27,572 nucleotides of DNA from a virus. Location: the IMG/VR virus record IMGVR_UViG_3300032288_002758, positions 1 through 27,572 of that record; one strand, given 5' to 3'. Shown one piece after another: positions 23,116 through 25,092 of this stretch (position 1 is the first letter of the stretch; the number at the start of each line of letters is the position of its first letter). The translations under genes were made by a program, and so were the position numbers. The notes beneath the pieces were generated by a model that saw only the letters and a list, made by a program, of their open reading frames with translations, was not told the origin of the DNA and ran no database searches.

Positions 23116-23190
23116 TGGCTGCCTCTCGTAGGATCGAACTACGGGCCATCGCATTAACAGTGCGCCGCTCTACCGCTGAGCTAAGAGGCA
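23116..23190 (-). tRNA. tRNA-Asn(GTT)
   Basis: A full cloverleaf is visible on the minus strand. The acceptor TGCCTCT/AGAGGCA is perfect, the D arm is GCTC...GAGC, the anticodon loop CTGTTAA has anticodon GTT, the T arm CGTAG/CTACG is perfect with loop TTCGATC, the discriminator is G and CCA is encoded. The anticodon stem has a G-A mismatch at its outer pair. It lies upstream of the SSB operon in the same direction and could be processed from that transcript. Confidence 0.93.
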
Positions 23191-23291
23191 ACGAGTGCAA
23201 TAAACCATAATGCTTAAACTGTTGCGAATTATTAAAACTGATGACTTATTTTTAAATGATAATCTTTATTTATTATATTCAGTTTGTTTAA

Positions 23292-23665
23292 TACGGTGTT
23301 ACACCGATAGCGTTTCCCCTACCTAAGTGTTTTCTGGGTACACGGTGCTGATAGCCCGAATGATTTATTTGCAGTGTCTCAGTAGAATTGCAGAGCCTAT
23401 AAACGAATGCTTATCGAATCTGTAAACCTACCGAGCAAGAGATAAACGCCTTCATCTCGCCAGCCTTGCCCACTTATAAATCTTGCAGTATTGCTCTTCG
23501 CCCCTGCTTTGCTACTGTTTCCAGTGCTAGGTTCAGCTACCCGGTCGCCGCCCGAATGCTATTTGTTTCCCCTAGATCAGTCTACCGAATCCTTCTCACC
23601 GATCTGGACGCTAATCAGCCAAGCCACTCTTGTCAGCTCATGCCTTTACGATTGCGCATAACTAA
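23292..23665 (-). ncRNA. Candidate structured non-coding RNA
   Basis: This stretch has no convincing gene and is richer in G and C than its AT-rich flanks. On the minus strand it shows GAAA-type loops, including ACTG-GAAA-CAGT (23525-23514), and a terminal hairpin CGGTG/CACCG (23294-23306). Two motifs occur twice: TAGGGGAAAC (23574-23565 and 23321-23312) and CATTCGGGC (23558-23550 and 23362-23354), in mirrored order about the centre. The next gene downstream is a tRNA. I found no signature of RNase P RNA, tmRNA or a group I intron. Large ornate phage RNAs such as GOLLD and ROOL often lie near tRNAs, but this is shorter. Limits are approximate. Confidence 0.45.
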
Positions 23666-23671
23666 ACCATT

Positions 23672-23702
23672 TTTACCCTAAGTTTTAAAAGTTGAGGGTA
23701 AA
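23672..23702. repeat. Palindrome between divergent units
   Basis: TTTACCCT (23672-23679) and AGGGTAAA (23695-23702) are perfect inverted repeats around a 15-nt spacer with TTTTAAAA at its centre. The dyad lies between the minus-strand RNA candidate and the plus-strand promoter, a typical place for an operator. Confidence 0.55.
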
Positions 23703-23714
23703 CATACTTTGCAA

Positions 23715-23741
23715 TTGATTCAACGATAGGAAAGATATAAT
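23715..23741 (+). promoter_or_regulatory. Plus-strand promoter candidate
   Basis: A perfect TATAAT lies at 23736-23741. TTGATT (23715-23720) is a possible -35 at a short 15-nt spacing; TTGCAA further upstream is too far. The transcript would start near 23748 and read toward the methyltransferase and packaging genes. Confidence 0.45.
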
Positions 23742-23747
23742 CTAGGC

Positions 23748-23821
23748 CCATCGTTGTTTGTGTTGCAACTTCAACATATAAAGGCTGGGCAGAGATTTCA
23801 AGATCGAACTCAGCCTTTTTC
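23748..23821 (+). ncRNA. Short terminated leader or small RNA
   Basis: Between the TATAAT promoter and the methyltransferase gene lies a possible transcript of about 75 nt. It has a small stem TGTTG/CAACA near 23760-23776, then AAAGGCTG (23780-23787) pairing with CAGCCTTT (23811-23818) across a 23-nt loop, followed by T residues to 23821. The last stem and T-run are an intrinsic terminator on the plus strand. It may be a small RNA or an attenuated leader of the downstream operon. Confidence 0.45.
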
Positions 23822-23859: not shown

Positions 23860-25092
23860 ATGATCAATTTGATTAACGATGACTGTCTGAATGCTTTAAA
23901 ACATCTTGATGCCGATAGCATTGATTCACTGGTGACTGATCCGCCAGCCGGTATCTCATTCATGGGCAAGGAATGGGACTCAGATAAGGGTGGGCGTGAT
24001 GGATGGATTGCTTGGATGACTGAAGTAATGCGTGAATGCCATAGGGTATTGAAGCCAGGTGCGCATGGTCTTGTTTGGGCTATTCCACGGACTTCACATT
24101 GGACATCTACGGCACTAGAAAATGCAGGGTTTGAGGTGCGAGACGTTGTCACTCATCTATTCGGTTCTGGCTTTCCTAAGTCATTAGACATAAGCAAGGT
24201 TATTGATAAGGCGTCTGGCGCTGAGAGAAAGGTGATAGGAATAAATCCTAACCATAGAAGGTTAACTGATACTGAAACAATGTGCGGACAGCCTCATGTT
24301 GGAATTGGAAGTATAACCGTTCCTTCAACCGATTCAGCTAAGCAATGGCAAGGATGGGGAACAGCTTTGAAGCCAGCAAGCGAGCATTGGGTTTTAGTTA
24401 GGAAGCCACTTGGAGAAAAAACCGTAGCAGCGAATGTTTTGAAGCATGGAACGGGTGGAATCAACATTGATGCAAGTAGGGTTGGAGTTTCAGAAAGTGA
24501 TCCGAATCACAGAAAGCCAAGTGTCGATTGGCAGAATGCAGACAATCCAGCTTCTACTCATTTTGGAAGTGGTGGAAGACCTATTGAAAATTTGAACATT
24601 AAAGGTCGCTTCCCTGCTAACCTTGTTCTATCTCATTCCCAACATTGCCAAGACGATCAATGCGATATTGAGTGCGCTATATTGCAGCTTGATGCGCAGA
24701 GTTTGGCAGGAGGAATGCACTCGGCTGGCTGTAAAAAACAGAATAACTTTGTGGGAAACAAAGGAAGCAAAACAGTAAATATAGGCGGAGGGATTAGCGC
24801 TAATCGTTTTGGAGATTCAGGCGGAGCTTCCCGATTCTTCTACTGCGCTAAGATTTCCACAAGCGAGCGGAATGCAGGTGCTAATAATAATCACCCTACC
24901 GTTAAGCCTAAGAAGCTCATGAGTTACTTTTGCAAGATGATAACCCCACCTGAAGGCATTGTACTCGATCCATTCATGGGAAGTGGTAGCACTGGCATTG
25001 CAGCGAAGGAATGCGGATTTAAGTTTATCGGTATTGAACGTGAAACTGATTACTTTGAGATAGCGAGTAAACGTATAAAAAATACTGATTGA
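23860..25092 (+). CDS. Beta-class DNA methyltransferase (N4-cytosine or N6-adenine)
   Basis: This 410-aa protein has motif IV near the N-terminus (VTDPPAGISFMGKEWD, D27-P-P-A) and the AdoMet motif at the C-terminus (VLDPFMGSGSTG from D370), preceded by HPTVKPKKLM. That IV-to-I order is the beta class. The central 200 residues, with several Cys and His (CQDDQCDIEC), are probably the target-recognition part. DPPA in place of DPPY is unusual for amino-methyltransferases, but I recall it in a phage subgroup with FMGKEWD. No restriction gene is adjacent, so it is probably an orphan enzyme that modifies phage DNA. It opens the packaging-arm operon. Confidence 0.85.
   Translation: MINLINDDCLNALKHLDADSIDSLVTDPPAGISFMGKEWDSDKGGRDGWIAWMTEVMRECHRVLKPGAHGLVWAIPRTSHWTSTALENAGFEVRDVVTHLFGSGFPKSLDISKVIDKASGAERKVIGINPNHRRLTDTETMCGQPHVGIGSITVPSTDSAKQWQGWGTALKPASEHWVLVRKPLGEKTVAANVLKHGTGGINIDASRVGVSESDPNHRKPSVDWQNADNPASTHFGSGGRPIENLNIKGRFPANLVLSHSQHCQDDQCDIECAILQLDAQSLAGGMHSAGCKKQNNFVGNKGSKTVNIGGGISANRFGDSGGASRFFYCAKISTSERNAGANNNHPTVKPKKLMSYFCKMITPPEGIVLDPFMGSGSTGIAAKECGFKFIGIERETDYFEIASKRIKNTD

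Follow-up and report, generated by a model that had tools for sequence, protein, structure and literature searches.

The window, a stretch of 27,572 nt that comes from an IMG/VR virus record (IMGVR_UViG_3300032288_002758), carries phage genes around a gene-free stretch that sits at a divergence point. Leftward lie genes for SSB, a Sak-type single-strand annealing protein, and an exonuclease VIII-like protein; rightward lie those for a DNA methyltransferase, the small terminase subunit, and an acetyltransferase. A virion protein is encoded elsewhere. Downstream of the stretch on the minus strand come tRNA-Asn, an 84-aa protein, and SSB. An earlier note had proposed a structured RNA on the minus strand at positions 23292 to 23665, in gene-free DNA that is richer in GC than its flanks and precedes the tRNA. 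We likewise found no convincing gene model within the stretch, a GC content of 0.45 to 0.52 (versus 0.34 to 0.38 in the windows just outside), and a tRNA-Asn(GTT) at 23190 to 23116 on the same strand. The locus was thus placed correctly, but the RNA runs about 100 nt past the proposed right edge, so that this much of its 5' part had been missed, and the promoter and inverted-repeat cassette at 23818 to 23773 had gone unnoticed. The extent of the RNA and its tRNA neighbor are as follows.

23290 to 23766, minus strand: structured non-coding RNA; 5' end placed from the promoter, 3' end approximate
23116 to 23190, minus strand: tRNA-Asn(GTT), downstream of the RNA and 100 nt away

There is good support for a large, previously undescribed structured phage RNA encoded on the minus strand at positions 23766 to 23290, measuring approximately 480 nt from the promoter to the end of the conserved sequence. 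Since the promoter boxes lie directly upstream, the RNA most likely starts near 23766.

Relatives of the locus

The RNA is known from two sequences, the window and the IMG/VR contig L002, the one relative that a search with SSB returned. The L002 homologue occupies the same locus at about 67 to 70% identity (BLASTN, window 23827 to 23310 against L002:2305-2817, 70% identity, E = 3e-52). There, the RNA stretch is still present although the methyltransferase gene is lacking and HNH genes flank the tRNA, one of them between the RNA and the tRNA. The solitary methyltransferase gene beside the RNA (window 23860 to 25092) is absent at L002:2254-2305, which makes the spot between the RNA and the terminase genes an apparent site of gene insertion. 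The L002 tRNA (L002:3304-3374), with HNH endonuclease genes on both sides, was called as Phe with anticodon AAA, and its anticodon arm looks degenerate compared with the tRNA-Asn of the window and of L085. In L085, a second relative, the same flanking genes and tRNA-Asn surround a gene for an HTH protein in the slot of the RNA, and the RNA sequence is absent from that slot. At L085:1499-1574, the slot has this gene, for an HTH_36 protein, with a long inverted repeat, AAACCTGTT...AACAGGTTT, in front of it.

DNA searches of phage and plasmid collections returned short chance matches or none. A 25-nt match to Methylophilales phage Venkman was set aside because no wider similarity was seen, and among contigs containing GAGAAGGATTCGGTA, L002 alone was homologous. 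Bacterial genomes yielded no GNAT relative. A covariance model of the 5' domain, run against the whole records behind eight loci, matched L002 alone, and models of the two domains gave no credible match in L085 or in three further contigs introduced below (L004, L178, and L244).

The stretch does not code for protein. Open reading frames of at least 50 aa within it lie on the opposite strand, apart from a 53-aa minus-strand frame that just touches the edge; its L002 counterpart has no frame of at least 50 aa, and indels between the two sequences break the reading frame. A conserved protein frame, which the earlier note had named as evidence against an RNA, was not found between the window and L002.

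A fold preserved by compensatory changes

For covariation, the minimum-energy structure of the window alone was read on L002. There, 126 pairs (85%) were kept, 27 of them through compensatory changes, and 22 were broken. Column shuffles that kept the identity and gap pattern gave 7.3 ± 2.4 compensatory pairs, and none of 150 reached 27. Three protein-gene controls from the same two phages, put through the same test, showed no clear excess (z = 1.6, -0.1, and -0.6). Previously, structures drawn from each of the two phages in turn had yielded 28 and 21 double changes, with about 7.5 in the null. The reverse complement showed an excess as well, smaller at 21 double changes, as is expected for hairpins. 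Since compensating substitutions in a related virus have preserved the fold, this is very probably a new functional RNA. The helices are listed below, all on the minus strand.

23721 to 23756: 5' hairpin (23756-23747 / 23730-23721); 2 compensatory, 1 broken, and 2 gapped pairs
23674 to 23700: invariant hairpin ACCCUC...UUAGGGU, whose 3' strand also holds a UAGGG(K)AAA motif
23530 to 23668: multibranch domain; closing helix (23668-23658 / 23540-23530) with 3 compensatory and 0 broken pairs
23644-23632 / 23627-23617 and 23607-23598 / 23581-23571: inner helices, each with 3 compensatory and 0 broken pairs
23511 to 23527: GNRA tetraloop hairpin, GAAA here and GCAA in L002; 1 compensatory and 0 broken pairs
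23362 to 23482: 3' domain; closing helix (23482-23476 / 23368-23362) with 2 compensatory pairs
23458-23439 and 23437-23375 (long): hairpins of the 3' domain, with 4 and 6 compensatory pairs

Most core helices had no broken pair in L002, and within them we saw one-sided changes to G-U. As for the GAAA-type loops noticed earlier, a tetraloop hairpin, CACUG-GAAA-CAGUAG, is present at about 23525 to 23511. The pairs of the invariant hairpin never vary and thus offer no covariation test; at the level of single helices, covariation from two sequences is thin. Support is poor for the 3' ~70 nt and for parts of the 5' 60 to 100 nt, the weakest parts being 23343 to 23290 and the helices 23768-23763 / 23714-23709 and 23708-23701 / 23288-23281.

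Folding energy is exceptional on the minus strand only. Over about 550 nt, z was -3.1 for the minus strand of the window and -3.6 for the matching strand of L002; for the segment from the promoter to the end of the RNA, the values were -3.1 and -3.5, whereas the opposite strands gave +0.5 and -0.6. Whole-structure strand tests of G-U versus A-C pairs gave mixed results, 14:6 from the window fold and 14:17 from the L002 fold. Alternatively, the conserved structure could act as DNA, for example as a replication origin or as a packaging site with hairpins, for which a location between divergent replication/recombination and packaging genes would be suitable. The strand-specific folding energy in both phages, the GNRA loop, the one-sided changes to G-U in core helices, and the absence of the sequence from L085 make this very unlikely.

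A promoter within a probable operator

Directly upstream of the RNA, the minus strand carries a cassette of two overlapping features.

23773 to 23801, minus strand: sigma-70-like promoter, TTGAAA-17-TATGTT; in an alignment of 5 contigs, the -10 columns T46, A47, and T50 never vary
23780 to 23818, minus strand: inverted repeat around the -35 box, AAAGGCTGAG / CCCAGCCTTT, a probable operator, with complementary arms in 5 phage contigs

The five cassette contigs are the window, L002, L004, L178, and L244. All five have a -35 box of TTGAAA (TTGACT in L244), followed after 17 to 18 nt by a -10 box of the form TANNNT, and four share the spacer TTYGATCTTGAAATCNCTG. Between the complementary arms lies TTCGATCTTGAAATCTCTG, where conservation at the right-hand edge is highest; this block recurs with different arms in L004 and L178 and in a modified form in L244. 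The arms themselves differ in sequence among the contigs while their pairing is kept: among 40 cells, there were 11 double changes, and none of the pairs was G-U. The lack of G-U pairs is more in line with an inverted repeat in DNA than with a hairpin in RNA, and the element looks like a probable operator for a phage regulator. The hairpin at 23818 to 23780 was accordingly dropped as a 5' element of the RNA, as it also contains the promoter boxes. That this promoter-proximal repeat behaves as DNA is a further point in favor of a DNA element at the locus.

Scanning about 4 Mb on both strands for the same architecture (arms of at least 6 unbroken pairs) recovered only the L244, L178, and L002 contigs and one further match without the TTGA loop. 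None of 54 promoter-core matches in bacterial genomes had matching arms of at least 6 pairs. In L178, the cassette stands directly before a protein gene, without the RNA. In L004 and L244, what follows it is DNA devoid of genes, about 350 and 570 nt long, respectively. These stretches likewise fold well, with z = -2.8 in L004 and -2.7 in L244 and a bias in L004 that is not strand specific; neither sequence nor covariance model revealed any homology to the window RNA. In L244, a 719-nt gene-free stretch behind the cassette (L244:1390-2108) leads to genes for a ParB_N-domain protein and a 412-aa protein, presumably a PAPS reductase-type enzyme. In L004, a segment with the promoter cassette and the 84-aa gene (L004:1404-2672) is inverted relative to the window, and an HNH gene follows the gene-free stretch.

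A repeated motif within the RNA

Two motifs had been described as each occurring twice, in mirrored order about the center of the stretch. Both do occur twice on the minus strand, with no further copy in the window: TAGGGGAAAC at 23574 to 23565 and 23321 to 23312, and CATTCGGGC at 23558 to 23550 and 23362 to 23354. Among 300 dinucleotide-shuffled versions of the stretch, just one contained both a repeat of at least 10 nt and another of at least 9 nt. The mirrored pair did not survive comparison with L002, where TAGGGGAAAC stays repeated and CATTCGGGC does not; the latter was therefore rejected as a conserved repeat.

23565 to 23574, minus strand: first copy of TAGGGGAAAC, AGGGGGAAT in L002
23312 to 23321, minus strand: second copy of TAGGGGAAAC, AGGGGGAAT in L002

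Under a simple substitution model, such an identical change of both copies would arise by chance with a probability of about 0.001. A third similar motif, UAGGGUAAA, forms the 3' strand of the invariant hairpin at 23700 to 23674. The TAGGGGAAAC repeat suggests two equivalent contacts. The repeated AGGGG(A/G)AA(C/U) could make these contacts with one partner or between RNA copies during early infection, and both AGGGGAAAC copies are candidate contacts in multimer formation.

Comparison with known RNAs

A search of the stretch against the 4227 families of Rfam 15, at gathering thresholds and at E values of up to 10, returned only chance-level matches to eukaryotic and sRNA models, in agreement with the earlier failure to place it in a known family. 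Nearest in general kind, and unrelated in sequence, are ROOL, a large structured RNA of phages and prophages that often lies near tRNA genes, and GOLLD, which is phage borne and also found near tRNA genes; the functions of both are unknown (PMC12286853). With ROOL, the RNA shares its large size, phage origin, and nearby tRNA gene (tRNA-Asn, 100 nt downstream here). It differs in matching neither the sequence nor the covariance model of ROOL, in its length (about 480 nt, versus 659 nt for the solved ROOL), and in its occurrence in two phages only; the homo-octameric cage is a feature of ROOL. GOLLD is likewise phage borne with a tRNA gene nearby, but its covariance model does not match, and many of its members exceed 800 nt. 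The likeness to GOLLD and ROOL drawn in the earlier note thus comes down to size, phage origin, and tRNA neighborhood.

The RNA could still belong to a known class of large RNAs or ribozymes (GOLLD, ROOL, OLE, or group I intron) but have diverged too far for the Rfam models to detect. Besides the three shared traits, the HNH genes beside the RNA of L002 and beside the comparable stretch of L004 are in keeping with such an origin. Given the results from all 4227 families, we regard it as highly improbable. A group I intron also fits poorly with the intergenic position, which leaves no flanking exons for an intron to join. The RNA has the covariation-supported conserved fold and the non-coding status of a large structured phage RNA.

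Proposed function

The RNA is the first segment transcribed after the promoter, and we found no terminator downstream of it, before the operon, so it may simply be a leader. As a leader acting only in cis on the early operon, it would bind RNA polymerase or another factor and prevent termination or gate the tRNA/SSB operon. A precedent is put of HK022, a phage-borne RNA of about 70 nt with two stem-loops, located downstream of early promoters (PMC9378689). The position downstream of an early promoter is shared, but the present RNA is several times larger (about 480 nt) and has multibranched domains; suppression of termination by binding RNA polymerase is a feature of put. Further, the downstream genes differ between the two carriers, with an HNH gene inserted in L002, while L085 keeps the operon genes without the RNA and L178 keeps the promoter without it. 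A purely cis-acting leader is therefore possible but rather doubtful.

We favor a trans-acting RNA over the leader on three grounds: its large size, its modularity, and the lack of a fixed gene downstream, which is implied by the promoter without RNA in L178, the HTH gene in the slot of L085, and the HNH insertion in L002. It is probably made at the start of the phage recombination/SSB operon, cut from the downstream tRNA-Asn, and active in trans. The promoter at 23801 to 23773, within its operator-like inverted repeat, would start leftward transcription toward the genes for tRNA-Asn, the 84-aa protein, SSB, and the single-strand annealing and exonuclease proteins. The first ~480 nt of the transcript would fold into two multibranched domains and several long hairpins with a GNRA loop. 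This part would then be separated from the downstream transcript, for which trimming of the tRNA 5' end by RNase P would suffice, and would accumulate as a stable RNA acting in trans. We consider this whole account, a new large structured RNA with a regulated promoter that is split from the downstream transcript and is stable and trans-acting, reasonably likely.

More tentatively, the RNA may represent a class of its own among large ornate phage RNAs, driven by a phage-regulated operator-promoter, with AGGGGRAA repeats that serve in self-assembly or in binding a single host partner; the structured, unrelated-looking stretches of L004 and L244 would then be fast-diverging members of the same functional slot. 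We see this as an unlikely extension.

Large structured phage RNAs known to date are few, and what they do is an open question. The present case also shows that metagenomic phages with very few relatives still have undiscovered RNA families. With its defined start, probably regulated promoter, and modular presence or absence, the RNA described here would make a compact system for studying the role of such an RNA in infection.
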